A stretch of DNA of 64,000 bases from Candidatus Methanogranum gryphiswaldense (lineage in GTDB: Archaea; Thermoplasmatota; Thermoplasmata; Methanomassiliicoccales; Methanomethylophilaceae), in contig CP076745.1 of the NCBI GenBank assembly GCA_019262145.1, forward strand, positions 245,093-309,092, given 5' to 3'. This document shows positions 45,682-57,784 of the stretch, in pieces. The notes under the pieces were generated by a model that saw only the letters and a list, made by a program, of their open reading frames with translations, was not told where the DNA came from and did no database searches. The stretch's first letter is position 1. Each line of letters starts with the position of its first letter. Position numbers and translations under genes: made by a program.

Positions 45682-45804
45682 ATGGATATGACACGGCACA
45701 AATTGGAATCTGTTACAATTAAAAGTGCGAGTATGATGAAAGAAAAATCAAAAGAAGGACGTTTAACGGTAGGTATGGACGTCGTTGTAACGGGAGTCGT
45801 TTGA
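45682..45804 (+). CDS. Candidate 40-residue leader protein of the coenzyme B operon
   Basis: Read directly: ATG at 45682, TGA at 45802-45804, three bases before the ATG of the thiamine-diphosphate enzyme. Basic and Met-rich (begins MDMTRHKLESV; contains KEKSKEGRLTVGMD). It lies downstream of TATA-like ACAATATATC and TTTGTATAAC (45621-45640), which put the transcript start at about 45650-45663. AAGGGG lies 10-15 nt before its ATG. Close coupling with the next gene argues for translation, but a short frame by chance is not excluded. The 235 bp upstream otherwise hold only promoter-like AT-rich sequence. Confidence 0.35.
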   Translation: MDMTRHKLESVTIKSASMMKEKSKEGRLTVGMDVVVTGVV

Positions 45805-45806
45805 CC

Positions 45807-46886
45807 ATGTGGAGATTGCTTGCAGAATGTATCAAATCAATGAGTGACACATCATACACGGTACATGGTTATCCAATAACAGACCTCGCGAAAGAAGCTG
45901 GGTCTATAAACGTCATAAATGAGAAGACTGCTTTAGAATATGCACTTGGGGATTCTCTCTCAAAGAAAAGATCTGTAGTAATAGTGAAGAATGTAGGAAT
46001 GAACGCACTTGCAGATCCGCTAGTGATCGCTTCGACCCAGGGGTTGATCGGAGGAGTAGTGCTCATATCGGGGGATGATACCCAAGCAAAGAGTACTCAG
46101 AACCGTCAGGATACAAGATCGTACGCTGAGGTAGCATCGATTCCGCTTATGGAGATCGACACAGAGGATGTGTATCAAAGTCTCGAGAATGCATTCATAG
46201 CGTCTGAAAGATATTCACGGGTAGCACTACTGAGAACCACTGACGTCATTATTTACAGTAAACCTAAGAAGCAAAAAGTCCATTCGATGCCGAGAGAACG
46301 TCAATACGGAAGTCTTGTCAGTAGGACTTTCACGGCTAAAGGCTGTGCAGATTATGCAGACAGGCTTTTCAAGGGGGAGGGAGAGGTTCCAGAGACGGTA
46401 GAAGATATAGGCTACACATTGGGCCTGTGCAAGAACTGTCCGTACAAACCTCTTCTAAAATACATATCGGACGAGGGCATCGAGGTGGTAGTCGACACTG
46501 GATGTATATTACTTGCCAGAAGAAAGCCTTACTACATCGGAGTGGCGAATTATGGGTTGGGTTCATCGATCGCTGTGGCCGCAAAATCTACAGGCATAGC
46601 GATAATCGGAGATTACGCTTTTCTCCATTCAGGCATAAACTCGTTGATAGATGTTTATGAAAGGGATATTCCATTGATCACCATCATACTTAAAAACAGA
46701 AGGTTAGGCATGACGGGAGGCGAGGAATGCATCGATATAACGAAGTACATCCCGTGGGCAGAGCCTAAAAATTTAGGGATCGAAGAAGTTAAGAAGATAT
46801 TGAAGGGACCTGTGGTCGGTCCAAAAACCATCATAATAGAGACAAAATGTCCAGAAGGTGAGATACATGAAAAAATTAGATATTGA
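45807..46886 (+). CDS. IorA-like thiamine-diphosphate enzyme, candidate 2-oxosuberate decarboxylase
   Basis: 359 residues. The N-terminal pyrimidine-binding half resembles IorA (VINEKTALEYALGDSL with the activating Glu; KNVGMNALADPLV; SGDDTQAKSTQNRQD); the diphosphate half has LCKNCPYKPLL, GVANYGLGSSIAVA, GDYAFLHSGINSLIDV (GDxxFxHSG) and LKNRRLGMTGGEE. It lacks the C-terminal ferredoxin domain of true IorA and there is no beta subunit next to it, so oxidative transfer to ferredoxin is unlikely. Being first in an operon that makes 2-oxosuberate, it is a good candidate for the decarboxylation to 7-oxoheptanoate. That assignment is inference. Confidence 0.8.
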   Translation: MWRLLAECIKSMSDTSYTVHGYPITDLAKEAGSINVINEKTALEYALGDSLSKKRSVVIVKNVGMNALADPLVIASTQGLIGGVVLISGDDTQAKSTQNRQDTRSYAEVASIPLMEIDTEDVYQSLENAFIASERYSRVALLRTTDVIIYSKPKKQKVHSMPRERQYGSLVSRTFTAKGCADYADRLFKGEGEVPETVEDIGYTLGLCKNCPYKPLLKYISDEGIEVVVDTGCILLARRKPYYIGVANYGLGSSIAVAAKSTGIAIIGDYAFLHSGINSLIDVYERDIPLITIILKNRRLGMTGGEECIDITKYIPWAEPKNLGIEEVKKILKGPVVGPKTIIIETKCPEGEIHEKIRY

Positions 46887-47991
46887 GATCTGTGATGTGA
46901 CACTTAGAGACGGTGAGCAGACACCTGGAGTTTCATTCACATGTGAGGAAAAGCTTGACATCGCGCGCTGCCTTGATACTATCGGCGTTGAGGTGATAGA
47001 AGCAGGTTTTCCGAGCGTAAGCGAAAATGAGATGAAATGTATAAAAAGAATAACAGAGGCCGGATTAGATGCGAGGATATGCTGTCTTTCGAGGGCGGTC
47101 AAATCCGATGTCGATGCAGCGATAGCATGCGATGTAGATCTGGTGAGCATATTCTTTGCAACATCCGATCTTCACATAAAGGTCAAGTACAATAAGAGTC
47201 GCGAAGCGATGCTGGCACAGGCTCTGGAGATGGTTGACTATGCAATAGATCACGGAGTGCAAGTGAGATTCTCAGCAGAGGATGGTTCCAGGACGGACAT
47301 CTCATTTCTGAAGGAAATGTTCAAGCAAGGTTACGAGCACGGAGCAATGTATAGCAGTATCGCCGATACGGTAGGGTGCCTGACCCCACTTCAAACAGCA
47401 GATATAGTAAGGGACCTGAAAAAGGATCTGAAGAACAAGTTGTGTGTTCATCTTCATAACGACATGGGGTTTGCGACAGCTAATGCATTCACAGCTGCAG
47501 AATGCGGGGCGTTCCAACTTCATACAACGGTTAATGGTATCGGGGAAAGGGCAGGTAATGCAAGTCTCGAAGAGCTGCTTGTTGCATTGAGGATGAAAGG
47601 CGGTGTAGACAGATACGATCTAACGCATCTTACCAAATTGTCCAAGATGGTTTCCAAGTATTCGGACGTCCCTGTTTCGAAGACAAAAGCAGTTGTCGGT
47701 GAAAATGCATTCTCGCACGAGAGCGGAATACATATTGCGGCCTTGATCGTAGACAGTGCCACTTATGAGTATTTCCCCCCTGAGATGGTAGGCGGGGAGC
47801 AGAAGTTTGTATTAGGTAAACACACAGGCAGGAAAGGTCTTGAGCACATCGTGAACACTCTGGGATATCAGCTTACGGATGCTCAGATGGAAAAAGTACT
47901 CCACGATGTGAAAGAGAGGGGCGAAGATAAATGTGCGATCACACCGAAATTGCTCAGGGAGATTGTAAAGAATGCAAAGGAGACGGTGTAA
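46867..47991 (+). CDS. aksA: Homocitrate synthase family protein AksA
   Basis: 374 residues from ATG with AAGGTGA upstream; it overlaps the preceding gene by 20 bp. HMGL-like TIM barrel: CDVTLRDGEQTPGVSF (active-site RDG), VEVIEAGFPSVSE, LCVHLHNDMGFATAN (metal-binding HxHND) and TVNGIGERAGNASLEE. It lacks the C-terminal regulatory domain of LeuA, as expected for AksA, which condenses acetyl-CoA with 2-oxoglutarate and its longer homologues. Isopropylmalate or citramalate synthase is the alternative, disfavoured by length and context. Confidence 0.88.
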   Translation: MKKLDIEICDVTLRDGEQTPGVSFTCEEKLDIARCLDTIGVEVIEAGFPSVSENEMKCIKRITEAGLDARICCLSRAVKSDVDAAIACDVDLVSIFFATSDLHIKVKYNKSREAMLAQALEMVDYAIDHGVQVRFSAEDGSRTDISFLKEMFKQGYEHGAMYSSIADTVGCLTPLQTADIVRDLKKDLKNKLCVHLHNDMGFATANAFTAAECGAFQLHTTVNGIGERAGNASLEELLVALRMKGGVDRYDLTHLTKLSKMVSKYSDVPVSKTKAVVGENAFSHESGIHIAALIVDSATYEYFPPEMVGGEQKFVLGKHTGRKGLEHIVNTLGYQLTDAQMEKVLHDVKERGEDKCAITPKLLREIVKNAKETV

Positions 47992-49200
47992 TTGAGCACG
48001 CTATCCGAGAGGATCCTGAAAGGAGAAGCAGGCAGTTTCGTCGATGTAATGGTGGACAGAGTAATGGCGCATGACGGTTCCGGAATTCAAGCATTGACAG
48101 CATTCCATGAGATGGAGGCGGAGGAAATCGCGTATCCTGAAAAAATATCGATAATCTACGATCATATCATTCCGGCGAACAATTCGATAACGGCAAACCT
48201 CCAGGCAGAACTCAGAAAGTTCTCTATAGAGAAAAATCTGAATTTCTACGACATAGGAGAGGGAGTATGCCATCAAGTGATGAGCGAGGGCAGAGTAATG
48301 CCCGGTGAGATCGTGGTCGGAGCAGATTCGCATACCTGCACCATGGGTGCATTCGGGGCGTTTGCGACCGGGGTAGGAGCATCAGACATGGCATCCATCT
48401 GGATCACAGGTGGTACATGGCTGAAGATACCGGAGACCATCAACATCAAATTGGAAGGAAAATTACCTAAATTTTCAGAACCTAAGGATGTAGCATTGAG
48501 ATATGTGAGCATGCTTGGAGCGGATGGTGCAACGTATAAGGCCATAGAGTTCACTGGCGATAATAATCTAGGGATGGAAGGAAGACTCACGATCTCGAAC
48601 ATGGCCATCGAGGCCGGCGCCAAAGCAGGTCTTTTCTATGCTGACGATGTGACATGCGGTTATCTAAGAAAATATGGAAAGGATGCAGCCCCTCAAAAAG
48701 TGGAGGATTGTGACTACATAAGAGAGGAGACGATAGACCTAGATGATGTGGAGCCAGTCCTTGCAGTACCACATAGGGTCGACACGATAAGACCCGTATC
48801 TGATATGGAAGGAACGCATCTTGACCAGGTCTTTGTCGGCACATGTACCAACGGCAGATATGAGGATCTAAAGCGTTTTGCAGACATAGTCAAGGGTAAA
48901 CGGGTGAAGGTCAGGACCATCGTCGTTCCTGCTTCGAGGACCGTGTTATTGAGGGCAATGGAGACGGGGGTCCTAAGGGATATCGTTGAATCTGGAGCTG
49001 TCATAGGTACACCAGGCTGCGGACCGTGTTTGGGTGCGCATCAAGGTGTGCTGGGAGAAGGGGAAGTCGGACTTTCTACAGCCAATAGGAACTTTAAGAA
49101 TCGCATGGGGGTCGATGCAGAATATTATCTTTCGTCGCCGACCACGGCCGCATTCTCCGCACTCAAAGGAGAGATCGCATCACCCAAGGAGGCACCATGA
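47992..49200 (+). CDS. aksD: Homoaconitase large subunit AksD
   Basis: 402 residues, beginning with TTG one base after the aksA stop, with AAGGAGACGG upstream. Aconitase-type [4Fe-4S] ligands: GADSHTCTMGAFG, GTCTNGRYEDL and PGCGPCLGAHQG. Hydro-lyase subunit that isomerises homocitrate-type intermediates via cis-homoaconitate; may also serve leucine synthesis. ATGA overlap with aksE. Confidence 0.9.
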   Translation: MSTLSERILKGEAGSFVDVMVDRVMAHDGSGIQALTAFHEMEAEEIAYPEKISIIYDHIIPANNSITANLQAELRKFSIEKNLNFYDIGEGVCHQVMSEGRVMPGEIVVGADSHTCTMGAFGAFATGVGASDMASIWITGGTWLKIPETINIKLEGKLPKFSEPKDVALRYVSMLGADGATYKAIEFTGDNNLGMEGRLTISNMAIEAGAKAGLFYADDVTCGYLRKYGKDAAPQKVEDCDYIREETIDLDDVEPVLAVPHRVDTIRPVSDMEGTHLDQVFVGTCTNGRYEDLKRFADIVKGKRVKVRTIVVPASRTVLLRAMETGVLRDIVESGAVIGTPGCGPCLGAHQGVLGEGEVGLSTANRNFKNRMGVDAEYYLSSPTTAAFSALKGEIASPKEAP

Positions 49201-49667
49201 AAGGAATGGTAGTGAAGGTCGGTGACGATATCGACACTGACCTTATCATAGCCGGAAGGTATCTCAGGACCAAGGACAAATCACTCTGGGCAAAGCATGC
49301 GTTCGAGGATCTGGATCCGGATATGTCGTCACGTCTCAATGGTAGTGTCGTCGTCGCAGGAAAGAATTTCGGATGCGGTTCTTCACGTGAGCAGGCGGCA
49401 ATAGCTCTGAAGGAAGCAGGTGTTGTCGCGGTCGTTGCGACAAGTTTTGCAAGGATTTTTTTCAGAAATGCGATAAACAGAGGCATCCCGTTATTCGAGA
49501 TCCCGGATCTGATAGAATGCAGTGATGGAGATGAGATGACCGTCTCCCTCGAGGGTTCGTATATCGAGGTAGAAGGCATAAGATACGAGTCTTTGAGACT
49601 CTCGGACAGGATGATGGAGATCATAAATTCTGGCGGACTCATCGAGTTGAGGAGAGGAAACAAATGA
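49197..49667 (+). CDS. aksE: Homoaconitase small subunit AksE
   Basis: 156 residues. DDIDTDLIIAGRYL and KNFGCGSSREQAAIALKEAG are the small-subunit signatures. The substrate loop YLRT follows GR, as in archaeal LeuD/HacB proteins whose loop sets chain-length preference. Coupled to aksD by ATGA; its own stop overlaps the ATG of a 31-codon frame. Confidence 0.9.
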   Translation: MKGMVVKVGDDIDTDLIIAGRYLRTKDKSLWAKHAFEDLDPDMSSRLNGSVVVAGKNFGCGSSREQAAIALKEAGVVAVVATSFARIFFRNAINRGIPLFEIPDLIECSDGDEMTVSLEGSYIEVEGIRYESLRLSDRMMEIINSGGLIELRRGNK

Positions 49668-49759
49668 TCTTCTTCGACGGTGCTTTTCCGGGTCGATACA
49701 TGGAGCGTGTCATCTTCAAGATGATCGAGACCAGGCATGTGTGGAGGAATATAGTATGA
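49664..49759 (+). CDS. Candidate 31-residue micro-protein between aksE and aksF
   Basis: Read directly; too short for ordinary gene callers. ATG at 49664 overlaps the aksE stop (ATGA) and its TGA at 49757-49759 overlaps the aksF start (ATGA), so ribosomes could pass through all three. GGAGAGG lies about 9 nt upstream. It starts MIFFDGAFPGRYMERV and is aromatic and basic, with no recognised motif. It may be a small subunit or a coupling peptide keeping ribosomes on the message. Without it, aksE and aksF would be separated by 88 bp, the only such gap inside the aks gene set. Confidence 0.45.
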   Translation: MIFFDGAFPGRYMERVIFKMIETRHVWRNIV

Positions 49760-50718
49760 AGATAGCGGTCGTCAAAGGGGACGGAGTCGGCGAAGAGGTA
49801 ATACCGGTAGCGGTGAAGGTGCTCGAGCATTATATCCCGGATGCAGAGTATTTCGAGGTAGAAGTCGGATATAAGAAATGGAAGAGGACCGGAAACGAAT
49901 GCGATGATGAGGACATAAGAAGACTCAAGGAAGCGGATTCCATCATATTCGGTGCCGTGACGACACCTCCTGACCCGAATTACAAGAGCGTTTTATTAAG
50001 GATAAGGCGTGAGTTGGAATTATATGCTAACATAAGACCAGTGTACGGAAACGGTTTCAAGATAACGGTCGTTCGTGAGAATTCGGAGGGATTGTATTCC
50101 GGTATAGAGACCATCGGTCCCGAAAGATCCACCACATTAAGGGTTGTGACGAGGGAGGCTAGCGAGCGTATCGCCGTGTGTGCTTGTGAGATACTTCTAA
50201 AGGATTTCAAGGGCGGCACTCTTACCATAGGAAACAAGGCGAATGTTCTGAAGTCAGACGTATTGTTCAGAGATACATGCATAGAGGTCGCGGAGAGGAT
50301 GGGGGTACCATACAGGGCCGCGTATATCGACTCGCTGACATTCGACGCGATATACAATCCTCGTAAATACGACGTGATAGTCACGACGAATTTATTCGGA
50401 GATATACTGAGCGATGCGCTCGGGAACCTCGTAGGCGGATTGGGAATGCTTCCGAGTGCTAACATAGGGAAGAAATATTCATTCTTCGAGCCAGTGCATG
50501 GCAGCGCACCCGATATCGCAGGGAGAGGGATCGCAAACCCCATCGCAGCGATAAGGAGTGCGGGTATGCTATTGGAGCATGTCGCAGGTATGAACTGCTT
50601 AGGGGATATCGAGAAGGCGATATCTGATACGATATCGTCAGGAATATGCACTCCAGATCTTGGTGGGCATGCTAGCACAGAGTTATTTGGGAACGAGATG
50701 TTGAATAGACTTGTTTGA
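49756..50718 (+). CDS. aksF: Homoisocitrate dehydrogenase AksF
   Basis: 320 residues from ATG with GGAGG 8 nt upstream. Beta-decarboxylating dehydrogenase family: GDGVGEEVIPVAVKV, LLRIRRELELYANIRP (substrate-binding Arg residues), ENSEGLYSGIE, YIDSLTFDAI, VTTNLFGDILSDALGNLVGGLGMLPSAN and EPVHGSAPDIAGRGIANP. Oxidises homoisocitrate-type acids to the next longer 2-oxo acid, ending at 2-oxosuberate. LeuB function is the alternative. Confidence 0.9.
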   Translation: MKIAVVKGDGVGEEVIPVAVKVLEHYIPDAEYFEVEVGYKKWKRTGNECDDEDIRRLKEADSIIFGAVTTPPDPNYKSVLLRIRRELELYANIRPVYGNGFKITVVRENSEGLYSGIETIGPERSTTLRVVTREASERIAVCACEILLKDFKGGTLTIGNKANVLKSDVLFRDTCIEVAERMGVPYRAAYIDSLTFDAIYNPRKYDVIVTTNLFGDILSDALGNLVGGLGMLPSANIGKKYSFFEPVHGSAPDIAGRGIANPIAAIRSAGMLLEHVAGMNCLGDIEKAISDTISSGICTPDLGGHASTELFGNEMLNRLV

Positions 50719-50727
50719 GACGATAGT

Positions 50728-52095
50728 ATGGCAATAGATGTTTTTAATCCCGCAAGTAACGAGAAGATCGGAGAGGTCGAGGAGTTCACAGAAGATGAGG
50801 TCGGAAGCACGATAGAGAGGCTTCAAGACGGATTTTCCGAATGGTCAAAGAGAAGACCAGCATCTAGAGGCATGGTACTTTACAAAGCGGCAGAGATCAT
50901 AAGAACGGACCAGAACAGACTCGCATCGATCCTGACATCAGAGCAGGGAAAACCATATTTTGAGGCGAGGAATGAGATCCAGGGCGTTGCTGCGGTCTTA
51001 GAATTCTATGCATCTATCGCAGGAACGGTATGTGGGCATACCACGCCGAAGTCGGATTATGGATATGCTTTCACAAATAAGTACCCCATGGGAGTATGCG
51101 GCGCGATCATCCCGTGGAATATGCCGGCACTTATAATGGCCTGGAAGATAGGGCCCGCGATCGCATCTGGCAACACGGTCATAGTAAAACCCGCGGAGAC
51201 GACCCCGTTAACAAATATCGAAATTGCAAAGGCGTTATATTCCGCTGGTCTTCCTGAGGATGTCCTCGCGGTCGCTACTGGAAGCGGCAATATAACAGGT
51301 GCTGCCATCGCAAGGAACAGAAACATCCGGCACCTGTCCTTCACAGGATCCGTTGAGACCGGAGAAAGGATCTCAAAGATGGTCGATGCAGGCAAGATCA
51401 GGTTGACACTTGAGCTCGGGGGAAGTGACCCGATGATAGTATGTGACGATGCCGATATCGACAAAGCGGTGGCAGGCGCGGTCACTGGTAGATTCTACAA
51501 CTGCGGTCAGATATGTACGGCGGTCAAGAGGCTTTTTGTAGCAGATAAAGTGGCGGATGCATTCATTGATAGGTTGAAGACCGCGACGGAGCAACTCAGG
51601 ATAGGAGATGGGGCTGTTGAAGGCACGAATCTCGGTCCGCTGAACAATATCAAAGGACTGAACAACATAGATTGCATCGTCAAAGACAGCATATGCTCAG
51701 CAAAGGTTATAACTGGAGCTAAAAAACTCAACGGTCCGGGTAATTTCTATGCTCCAACATTGATAACGGATCTTGAACCGGATTCGAGGCTTTTGACCGA
51801 AGAGGTCTTCGGTCCCGTACTTCCTATCGTAAGGTTCGAAAACCTGGATGAAGCAATAGGGATGGCAAATTCCACAAGATTCGGCCTCGGTGCTTCGATA
51901 TGGACGAACGACATAAGGAGTGCATCCAAGGCGATAGACGAGATAAGATCAGGGATACTATGGGTGAATAGGCATTCGAGGATCCCGCCCGAGGTACCAT
52001 TTGGAGGCGACAAGAACAGTGGTATTGGCCGTGAGAACGGCCTCAATGCATTGGAACAGTATCTTATCGAGAAGACAGTCATCATTGCGCCATGA
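50728..52095 (+). CDS. Aldehyde dehydrogenase (non-acylating), at the end of the coenzyme B operon
   Basis: 455 residues. NAD(P)-binding and catalytic residues intact: IIPWNMPALIMAWKIGPAIASGNTVIVKPAE, SFTGSVETG, ELGGSDPMIV (Glu), FYNCGQICTA (nucleophile Cys) and EEVFGPVLPIV. Closest in look to succinate/glycolaldehyde dehydrogenases. Nine bases after aksF, so part of the operon. A possible substrate is 7-oxoheptanoate (pimelic semialdehyde), the product expected from 2-oxosuberate decarboxylation; this is inference. Confidence 0.88.
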   Translation: MAIDVFNPASNEKIGEVEEFTEDEVGSTIERLQDGFSEWSKRRPASRGMVLYKAAEIIRTDQNRLASILTSEQGKPYFEARNEIQGVAAVLEFYASIAGTVCGHTTPKSDYGYAFTNKYPMGVCGAIIPWNMPALIMAWKIGPAIASGNTVIVKPAETTPLTNIEIAKALYSAGLPEDVLAVATGSGNITGAAIARNRNIRHLSFTGSVETGERISKMVDAGKIRLTLELGGSDPMIVCDDADIDKAVAGAVTGRFYNCGQICTAVKRLFVADKVADAFIDRLKTATEQLRIGDGAVEGTNLGPLNNIKGLNNIDCIVKDSICSAKVITGAKKLNGPGNFYAPTLITDLEPDSRLLTEEVFGPVLPIVRFENLDEAIGMANSTRFGLGASIWTNDIRSASKAIDEIRSGILWVNRHSRIPPEVPFGGDKNSGIGRENGLNALEQYLIEKTVIIAP

Positions 52096-52289
52096 GTACA
52101 GATTTTTATCAAATATTATTAAGAATATTGTTATTTTGTTTAGATACATGGAAATCTTGTTTTGATCAAAAACAACCAGATCGGATAATTGTAAAATAAG
52201 AAACAATTTTAAAATTTGTTTATTGTCTACGATGGATGCCCGAATTTTTGACAGTTGGCTTTATACATTTATATAACTCTTCGTTTTTC

Positions 52290-53363
52290 ATGTCGTGCAG
52301 TTTCGAAGATAAACTTAACACCCTCATTGCTCAGATACCTGCCAGAAAAAATGTTATCAAGACAGAAGAGGCTACTAAAACAGGTCTTATAATGCCTTTT
52401 TTAACGGCACTCGGATATGACTGCACAAATCCTTTGGAGGTTTGTCCAGAATATATTGCTGATTTTGGTGTTAAAAAAGGAGAAAAAATAGATTATGCGA
52501 TATTAAAAGATAACAAACCTATAATATTTATTGAGTGTAAAAGTATTGGATTTGATTTGGATGATAAAAAATTCGGTTCTCAATTGTATCGTTATTTTTC
52601 AACATCCAACACTAAGATAGGAATACTTACCAATGGTATTGAATATCGGTTCTTCTCAGATATCAAAACAGAGAACAAAATGGACACTACACCTTTCTTG
52701 ATAATTAATCTTGAAAATATCAATGAGCGTCAGATCAAAGCTCTTTCTAAATTCTCACGTGATGAATTCAATATTGAAAGTCTTTTGCCGTCAGCCGAGG
52801 ACATGATGATACGTAATGAAATCATGAAAGCAATAGAATCTGAATTGAATAATCCTTCAAAAGAATTTGAAGATATATTGATCGTAAAGGTCTATGAAGG
52901 TCGTATCACTCCCAATGTAAGACAAAGATATTCGCCGATTATTAAAGATGCAATTAAAACCTACATAAGCGAAAAAGTTACTTCTAGACTTATGACTGCT
53001 ATGGATCATGAAAAAGAAAGCAATCTTCCTGTTGAACCTGAATCGGTAGTAGAAGAGGACAGTATTGTAACAACAGAAGATGAAAAGGAAGGTTATATGA
53101 TGGTCCGTGCAATTTGTGCGCAATTAATTGATCCTGGCCGCGTTTATATGAGGGACGCGAAAAGCTATTGTGCCATTCTTTTTGATGATAACAACAGAAA
53201 ACCAATATGTAGACTTTATTTCAACTCCCCTACAATCAGATATATTTCCACATTCGAGGGAGAAATCGAAAATAAGGTCAAAATAGAAAAAACAATGGAC
53301 ATATACAAGATGCAAGAAAATATTGTTGCAACTGTCAAGAAATATCTTGAGAAACAACTATAA
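52290..53363 (+). CDS. Type I restriction HsdR N-terminal domain protein (stand-alone)
   Basis: 357 residues; the ATG lies about 28 nt after a TTTATAC box (leaderless). PD-(D/E)xK nuclease core: EEATKTGLIMPFLTALGYD, KGEKIDYAILKDNKPIIFIECKSIG (catalytic D, E and K), GILTNGIEYRFFSD. No helicase domain follows; the C-terminal half is unrecognised, with an acidic linker near 240-255. Such lone proteins occur in genomic islands and may act in defence. Strongly AT-rich compared with the operon before it, which fits horizontal transfer. The 194 bp upstream hold only AT-rich promoter sequence. Confidence 0.8.
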   Translation: MSCSFEDKLNTLIAQIPARKNVIKTEEATKTGLIMPFLTALGYDCTNPLEVCPEYIADFGVKKGEKIDYAILKDNKPIIFIECKSIGFDLDDKKFGSQLYRYFSTSNTKIGILTNGIEYRFFSDIKTENKMDTTPFLIINLENINERQIKALSKFSRDEFNIESLLPSAEDMMIRNEIMKAIESELNNPSKEFEDILIVKVYEGRITPNVRQRYSPIIKDAIKTYISEKVTSRLMTAMDHEKESNLPVEPESVVEEDSIVTTEDEKEGYMMVRAICAQLIDPGRVYMRDAKSYCAILFDDNNRKPICRLYFNSPTIRYISTFEGEIENKVKIEKTMDIYKMQENIVATVKKYLEKQL

Positions 53364-53753: not shown

Positions 53754-53990
53754 ATGAAACTAAAGCATTCAGTAGAAAATAAGGGAATGAAAATGGAATT
53801 ATTCGTGTCTAGTAAAATGCATGAATTTTTGATGATCATTACATTTTTAGCACTTTTGGGATTTGCAGTAGCTAATGTGGTTTACAATATGCTCAACGGA
53901 ATAAGTAGCTACATACTGATAACAATGCCACTCGTAATGTTATTTTTACTGGCATTTGTAAAGACATTCATAAAAGTAAAGGAAAACTGA
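53754..53990 (+). CDS. Small two-helix membrane protein
   Basis: 78 residues with hydrophobic segments near 24-44 and 51-71 and short charged ends. TTTATATT lies about 28 nt before the ATG, giving a leaderless start. No motif. Part of the AT-rich island next to the Rep gene; possible mobile-element cargo. Confidence 0.55.
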   Translation: MKLKHSVENKGMKMELFVSSKMHEFLMIITFLALLGFAVANVVYNMLNGISSYILITMPLVMLFLLAFVKTFIKVKEN

Positions 53991-54171
53991 CGATTGTTCA
54001 ATGATCGTATTGTAGGTTTTAACTTGGGTTATCTCTATCAAGTCTATACGGAAAACCTCGTTCCACTCGGTTTTTGAACAAGATATGAATGATTTTGTTG
54101 AACTTATTTATTCGACGTTGTTAAATTCTTGTATTTCATAATGGGCGAATTGTATTAGATCAGTGACATCA

Positions 54172-54366
54172 ATGGATAAAATCAAAAAATTGGGATTAAT
54201 ATATTTGCTGGTTGGAGCAATAGTGCTTCTGTACTACTTATGCATGTTCGCATGGACCAAGTCTGAGAATTATATAGGCTTTTTAATTGGCAGCGGTATT
54301 GTGTATCTGATAGTTGGTATTTATTTTTGGAAGAAAGGAGTATTCACATCATCCAGAAAGGAATGA
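54172..54366 (+). CDS. Small two-helix membrane protein
   Basis: 64 residues from ATG (a GTG three codons earlier is possible). Two hydrophobic segments (about 9-27 and 37-53) flanked by Lys-rich ends. The stop codon lies in a palindrome GAGAATTATTCTC (54365-54377) that may end transcription. No motif recognised. The 181 bp before it are AT-rich with a weak AAAACC/GGTTTT inverted repeat. Confidence 0.5.
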   Translation: MDKIKKLGLIYLLVGAIVLLYYLCMFAWTKSENYIGFLIGSGIVYLIVGIYFWKKGVFTSSRKE

Positions 54367-54478: not shown

Positions 54479-55804
54479 TTATGTTATCGGTAATGATAAG
54501 CGGTTTAAGATCTCTCGAGCATCATCAAACGAATAACTCATGAACAGGTACAGGAAAGGGTCATTGATACTGACCGTTTTAATATGCACCCAATTGCCCT
54601 TGAGTTTATCCCTGGTCTCTTTCAGTCTGTTCAGGGCAGTCCTGAATGATTTGGATATCACCCACGTCTGAGAGTTCCATATGAGGTTGTTGAGTATCGT
54701 CCAGACGGCTGTACGGTACTTCTCTGGAAGTTCTGATACCTTCTTGCAGGTCTTGAGTTCAGGGATATTTTCCACATCCAGGGATTTGGAGATGTACTTG
54801 GCGATGTAATTGACAGGGTTAGCATAACCATGGAATGACAGTCTTTCCTTTGTGAAACCGTATATGTCTATGAAACCGACACCCCACACAGGACTTACGG
54901 AATTCCAATCATTGAGGTTCTTCAATGATCCCAGTACCTTCTTGGAATAGGGGTCCGAAGTATCTGGGCGGTAAGTATGGCTCTTCTCGTGCCATTTTAT
55001 CTTGAGAGGTGTGTTCAGATAGAGGATTATGTGAACGGCAGGATATCCCGATGTTGTAGATTCTTTTACGCTGACCTTGGAATATCCGCCGATCAGGACC
55101 TTGTTTAGACGGGCAAATAATTTGTTAGGACCCTTACCAGCAGTTGTGATGTACTGATTGGCCTGGGCGCAGGACATGAGATGTTTATCGAATGTCAATG
55201 TCATGAAGAACAAGTGCGAGAATGTCTGACCGTTGCATGTTCTAGAGATATAGGCCTTCTTGATTATCTTGGCAAGGTCCGCTTTTTTGAAGGATTGTCT
55301 CAAGGCCCATTGGGTGTTTCCCCTTCTAGATACGGGTATCGCGTGCCTTTCTTTAGTTTCTTTATTTTCAAATAGGTTATAATAATGACACTCAATATAA
55401 TCCAATAGATCGGATAATAGGTCATCAGGGTCTATCTTGCCTGATAGAACATCCTTCTGTAATTGAGACCTATGTTCAGAATCAAAGATGGTGATGTTAA
55501 CACCACCCTGGAAATAAACTTGGATCCTTGGCGGCCTTAATGGTTCTAAAGGACGGCAGATAACGGGCGGAGGGGGGAATACCCTCCCGTCCGCCCTATC
55601 TGCCTGGTGGTGCTTGTTATTGGCCGTCTTGTGACGACCATAACATCCCTTCGGGAATGCACCGAAAGAAGATAGCCCTCCATCTTGTTTTTTCAGGAAT
55701 TGAGGGTTGAAAATTCTGGCGTGTGAGAAATTGAATTGGTAGCCAGATGTAAAAATGGCGTGGAGAGGGGGATTCGAACCCCCGGGTCACGTAGTGACAT
55801 CAGA
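54479..55804 (-). pseudogene. rep: Rolling-circle Rep (HUH-type) gene, 5' end lost at tRNA-Ser
   Basis: Open frame of 441 codons with no ATG, GTG or TTG in its first 133 codons; it enters from inside tRNA-Ser (TAA at 55805-55807). Rep motifs: FFMTLTFD (motif 1), a single-His motif 2 AVHIILYL, and NPVNYIAKYISKS (motif 3 with the candidate nicking Tyr and Lys). The first 133 codons encode a basic Pro-rich region (RVFPPPPVICRPLEPLRPPR). Translation could begin only at a TTG (55403-55405) after losing that region. I read it as a plasmid or virus replication gene truncated by integration at the tRNA. Rep identity is moderately sure; truncation is visible. Confidence 0.7.
55555..55604. repeat. GC-rich hairpin within the Rep frame, candidate nicking origin
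   Basis: Inverted repeat with outer arms GGCAGATA/TATCTGCC and inner arms GGGCGGAGGG/CCCTCCCGTCCGCCC, about 50 bp, in otherwise AT-rich surroundings. Rolling-circle double-strand origins often sit in or just before the rep gene as a hairpin, so this is a candidate origin relic. A simple GC-rich coding artefact is possible. Confidence 0.5.
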
Positions 55805-55843
55805 TTAGCAGTCTGACGCCTTGCCAGGCTGGGCCACCTCCAC
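55756..55843 (-). tRNA. tRNA-Ser (GCT)
   Basis: Acceptor GTGGAGG/TCTCCAC, D arm GCCC/GGC, anticodon stem TCAGA/TCTGA with loop CTGCTAA (anticodon GCT), long variable arm TGTCACTACGTGAC typical of class II tRNA, T arm GGGGG/CCCCC with TTCGAAT, discriminator G and encoded CCA (55756-55758). A TTTTAATA box lies about 35 nt upstream. Its 3' end is the junction with the truncated Rep frame, as expected of an integration site. Confidence 0.95.

Positions 55844-56308: not shown

Positions 56309-57784
<1,476 letters not shown>

Follow-up and report, generated by a model that had tools for sequence, protein, structure and literature searches.

A probable relic of a small tRNA-Ser-integrated rolling-circle element in Candidatus Methanogranum gryphiswaldense

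The cryptic integrated elements (CIE) of Thaumarchaeota, e.g. NitAQ6f-E2, are small elements that sit at tRNA 3' ends and encode tyrosine integrases; restriction-modification genes occur in some of them, and one encodes a rolling-circle Rep described as SNJ1-like (PMC6563490). The recently described Rep-Arvir are archaeal rolling-circle endonucleases found in viruses and plasmids, including hits in Thermoplasmatota (PMC13107129). For Methanomassiliicoccales, no description of such elements was found in the openly accessible literature that we searched. Here we analysed a stretch of 64,000 nucleotides (hereafter the window) from the 1.52 Mb, single-contig genome of Candidatus Methanogranum gryphiswaldense, in which a rep gene lies next to a tRNA-Ser gene. 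The locus belongs to a known kind, the small tRNA-integrating rolling-circle elements.

The Rep-like frame is on the minus strand and terminates at a TAA (54479-54481). In agreement with the preliminary description, it reads without a stop into tRNA-Ser (GCT) (55756-55843, minus strand; ARAGORN and Rfam), and its earliest ATG, GTG or TTG is the TTG at 55405. The nearest in-frame stop inside the tRNA is a TGA (55787-55789) and not the TAA named there, which is in the same frame but farther upstream (55805-55807), so that the open frame spans 54479-55786 (435 codons) and the start-less stretch has 127 codons rather than the 133 first counted. The openness of this frame had been taken as a sign of coding sequence. 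The frame is indeed open and start-less, but this is weak evidence: the 97 codons that precede the start defined by homology (see below) are open in that frame in 5.5% of dinucleotide shuffles (0.26% when openness and lack of a start are required jointly, a criterion picked after the result was known). Read-through of TAG as pyrrolysine (Pyl) was considered as a factor and is unnecessary, as no TAG interrupts the Rep frame.

We sought relatives of Rep in 102 genomes of the family and found them in 23 genomes; the closest share 54-63% identity, and the named ones are a Thermoplasmata archaeon and a Candidatus Methanomethylophilaceae archaeon. Homology is confined to the frame from about codon 98 onward: with the query cut at 55498, the matches of the relatives start at residue 1-3, and there is no conservation upstream. 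The codon aligned with the homologs' starts (window 55495-55493) is GTG in L071, L072, L073, L074 and L079, TTG in L077, L092 and L093, CTG in L076, ATG in L078 and AGC in L075; in the window it is ATC (55493-55495, minus strand), where nearly all homologs have GTG, TTG, CTG or ATG. Many homologs have a Shine-Dalgarno-like sequence upstream of the start codon, and the GGTGGTG of the window (55501-55507, minus strand) sits where several of them have GGAGG-type sites. The start region of the window (55490-55507, GGTGGTGTTAACATCACC) also forms a near-perfect inverted repeat that spans both the Shine-Dalgarno-like site and the ATC. The homologs have a common N-terminal block (FD...LQ..VLSG) and are 338-349 aa long, compared with 338 aa for the window, and 30 conserved residues lie between the ATC-position codon and TTG 55405. 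Together, the homolog starts, the matching lengths and these 30 residues argue that the rep of the window (54479-55495, minus strand, 338 codons) is full length except for its start codon. Homologs of the same length starting at 55405, which the preliminary description had named as evidence against a truncated gene, were not what we observed; their starts align to 55495-55493, 30 conserved residues earlier.

The window gene encodes a putative rolling-circle (HUH-type) replication initiator. All ten members of our alignment A1 match the Pfam profile REP_ORF2-G2P (PF23343), with scores above the cut-off for L071 (3.3e-7) and L005 (2.3e-6) and below it for the window (4e-4). Motif III (Y..KY), with the catalytic tyrosine, is present as NYIAKY, in which Y230, K233 and Y234 are invariant in A1, and the motif II region, where H-hydrophobic-H is expected, has a single histidine (YPAVH, invariant in 10 of 10). 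On the strength of the Pfam match and the Y..KY motif we assign Rep to the HUH group. A structure model built from three sequences was too poor for a fold search (pLDDT 45), and a search of solved structures with Rep returned SMC matches only, which are spurious. The window Rep deviates at 22 of 155 otherwise invariant columns, as compared to 0-9 for the other members; these changes suggest relaxed selection, although the excess of unusual residues may come only from distance, the window being the sole representative of its genus.

Since the homologs start at the ATC position, the 258 bp that separate the tRNA from rep are best read as a non-coding spacer. We rejected the 97-codon leader as coding sequence, since it has no conserved homolog in close relatives and its openness is that of 5.5% of shuffles; its codon score in the Rep frame exceeds that in the other two frames. 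The spacer contains strong hairpins: folded as single-stranded DNA, the leader (55496-55755) has a z of -5.6, and none of 200 shuffles was as good. One hairpin is at 55616-55644 and a long GC-rich one, a candidate replication origin, at 55556-55603 (both minus strand); such hairpins would fit a rolling-circle origin. No counterpart of the leader sequence was found in 40 related genomes.

Intact elements with the same junction were found in three genomes from another genus of the family (G005, G017 and G099, with loci L053, L055 and L100, respectively). In all three, tRNA-Ser (GCT) is followed by a 20 bp arm block (ATCTGGCT...TTCAATT) and then by rep, and in the window the arm motif ATCTGGCT-N5-TTCAATT (55729-55748, minus strand) and rep likewise lie directly behind the tRNA. 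The intact order in these relatives is tRNA/attL, rep, cargo, tyrosine integrase and attR, with element sizes of 6.4, 6.6 and 5.4 kb in L053, L055 and L100 and exact direct repeats of 13, 15 and 17 bp. Their tyrosine integrase gene (PF00589) ends next to a repeat of the tRNA 3' end (CCCCTCTCCACGC at L053 9210 and L055 13066; TCCCATCCTCCACGCCA at about 9220 in L100), so the tRNA 3' end that serves as attL recurs at the far end of the element. This shared layout supports one part of the earlier proposal, namely that an element integrated by recombination between the tRNA-Ser 3' end and a site close to its rep. An intact Rep, which the preliminary description had suggested looking for, and a further copy of the tRNA-Ser 3' end are both present in the relatives' integrated elements, but circular copies are not found in plasmid, phage or IMG/VR collections (no circular or viral relatives of Rep in IMG/VR, PLSDB and INPHARED). 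In L053, a second rep with the arm motif lies directly behind attR, which we interpret as a tandem insertion; since rep and arm motif there follow the second tRNA-end copy, the order in the circle would be integrase - attP - rep.

Further elements built in this way sit at tRNA-Lys, tRNA-Arg and tRNA-Gly, where the repeats measure 16-28 bp. The tRNA-proximal gene is rep at tRNA-Ser and tRNA-Gly, and the integrase at tRNA-Lys and tRNA-Arg, i.e. both polarities occur. Two genomes without rep also have the arm motif after tRNA-Ser, G013 and, in degraded form, G001. There the motif may be left over from an element since lost, or may belong to the chromosomal site itself, so that G001 may not represent an untouched empty site. 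The tRNA-Ser of G013 (L026) points towards the 16S gene, whereas the two genes diverge in the window (archaeal 16S gene at 56312-57782), L053 and L055.

Cargo genes differ among the elements. Between rep and integrase, L053 carries an MmeI-type IIG restriction enzyme and L055 a PDC-M46 pair with Lamassu-like similarity; L054 has type II restriction-modification genes, L101 CfrBI-type ones, L103 another IIG enzyme and L059 an asparagine-synthase-like protein, and no defence gene was identified in L100. Where identified, the cargo appears to be mostly anti-phage defence, and the rep - integrase elements resemble small vehicles for defence genes in Methanomethylophilaceae, a family of elements that appears to shuttle restriction-modification and other defence genes between gut methanogens. 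In the window, an ORF for an HSDR_N-type nuclease (52236-53363, plus strand; Pfam HSDR_N 1.5e-14, phrog_4225 endonuclease, weak type IIG match) is candidate defence cargo; it is rare (2 of 61 genomes) and lies within an AT-rich stretch (52.2-54.4 kb) that we infer to be part of the element. Two small membrane-protein-like ORFs on the plus strand (53754-53990 and, in the AT-rich region, 54163-54366) are possible element content as well, and neither has a homolog in the relatives' loci compared.

The far side of the element looks different in the window. Neither an integrase gene nor, allowing up to 3 edits, an attR was found in the window, and for lack of both we class the copy as a relic of the attL end and not as an intact member. 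In G001, of the same genus, tRNA-Ser is directly followed by metallophosphoesterase, rpS8e and SRP19-like genes; in the window these genes are at 45446-43991, 10.3 kb from the tRNA. Most of the 10.3 kb is a coenzyme-B-type cluster whose gene order recurs elsewhere in G012, which points to a rearranged region in which the far end of the element was lost. This cluster (45801-52095) encodes a TPP-dependent decarboxylase-like protein, AksA, AksD/E, AksF and an aldehyde dehydrogenase; it sits between tRNA-Ser and the usual neighbour genes and looks chromosomal, and its decarboxylase, which G001 lacks, occurs in just 6 of 41 related genomes. The cluster as cargo was rejected as unproven, the same gene order being found away from the site in G012. 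Elsewhere in the genome of the window, the C-terminal part of an integrase, about 50 aa long, lies next to tRNA-Gly (GCC) (L110 1480-1752, C1 at about 556 kb) as a relic of another tRNA-integrated element, and an integrase-family gene that comes after a helicase-like one (L109, C1 at about 585 kb) probably marks a different integrated element.

Taken together, the locus very probably represents what is left, at the attL side, of a small integrative element that used the mechanism of its relatives, with a full-length rep, and that has since decayed and is likely immobile now. The intact element would be a circle of 5-7 kb, judging from the integrated copies, with the order integrase - attP - rep - cargo. 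Its tyrosine integrase would recombine attP with the 3' end of tRNA-Ser (GCT), which would regenerate the tRNA and leave rep complete, co-directional and just downstream. With integrase and attR gone and ATC as the start, the window copy is most likely immobile and its rep silent or barely translated. A puzzling headless gene is thus recast as a relic from a family of small mobile elements.

The most durable of the alternatives, in our opinion still an unlikely one, is that Rep is still made from a rare ATC start behind GGTGGTG and that the element is kept or mobilised by the integrase of another element. ATC may be a working rare start, as the 338-codon frame has neither stop nor frameshift, retains the Y..KY motif and is preceded by a correctly spaced Shine-Dalgarno-like site, and the integrase-bearing locus at C1:585 kb could act in trans. 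However, ATC starts are very weak where they have been studied, the 22 unusual residues at conserved columns speak against a Rep that is still made, and the integrase at C1:585 kb is only 25% identical. Translation from TTG 55405, the first permitted start codon in frame and the one an automatic caller would annotate, would give a Rep of 308 residues; it would lose the 30 residues that are conserved across all relatives having the region, and we consider it highly improbable.

We attach similarly little weight to the idea that integration at tRNA-Ser or tRNA-Gly acts as a switch between replication and dormancy, in which integrase-side transcription of rep is swapped for tRNA-side transcription. 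Such a swap would follow from the co-directional integrase, attP and rep of the free circle, and a transcriptional effect of integration on rep is possible; if true, this would be a transcriptional switch and not a gene-splitting one, and it would be absent from the oppositely inserted sister elements at tRNA-Lys and tRNA-Arg.

A gene-splitting event is what the preliminary description had proposed: integration at a site in or near rep would have cut off the Rep N-terminus, so that only the 3' portion of a longer gene stayed behind, possibly to keep replication off in the integrated state. The start-less frame that is open into the tRNA would fit, and integration that splits genes is known for archaeal integrase genes (suicidal integrases, PMC8371274). 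We find this scarcely credible here, since the homologs, whether at tRNA-Ser or not, begin at the residue aligned with frame codon 98 and have equal lengths, the upstream residues are unconserved in close relatives, and the junction is outside rep in every case examined. In L053, L055 and L100, rep is wholly inside the element beside attL, after a spacer of only about 80-95 bp from the attachment site. Rep has therefore not been separated from an N-terminus, and silencing by splitting it has no basis; a frame that is open into a tRNA is not in itself evidence of a split gene. That Rep, through HUH nuclease activity and with no integrase involved, placed the element at the tRNA has next to no chance as well, as the relatives with the same junction encode a tyrosine integrase and are bounded on both sides by long direct repeats, even though the window copy lacks an integrase and its rep abuts the insertion point.

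As a tRNA-targeting integration in archaea, the probable attL relic resembles the SSV/pTN3-type systems with suicidal integrases; the integrase is split in those, whereas no gene is split here (PMC8371274). With Rep-Arvir it has in common a rolling-circle initiator, a type of protein found in many archaeal viruses and plasmids, with hits in Thermoplasmatota; the two are set apart by description, the SNJ2 member having KHYYM around the catalytic tyrosine and the window Rep the canonical NYIAKY together with the Pfam REP_ORF2-G2P match (PMC13107129). In plan it also resembles the CIE, which are likewise small tRNA-3'-end elements with tyrosine integrases and, in some cases, restriction-modification cargo, one of them with a rolling-circle Rep (PMC6563490). 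The CIE are from another phylum and that Rep is described as SNJ1-like, whereas the order rep - cargo - integrase seen here is shared by many genomes within a single family.
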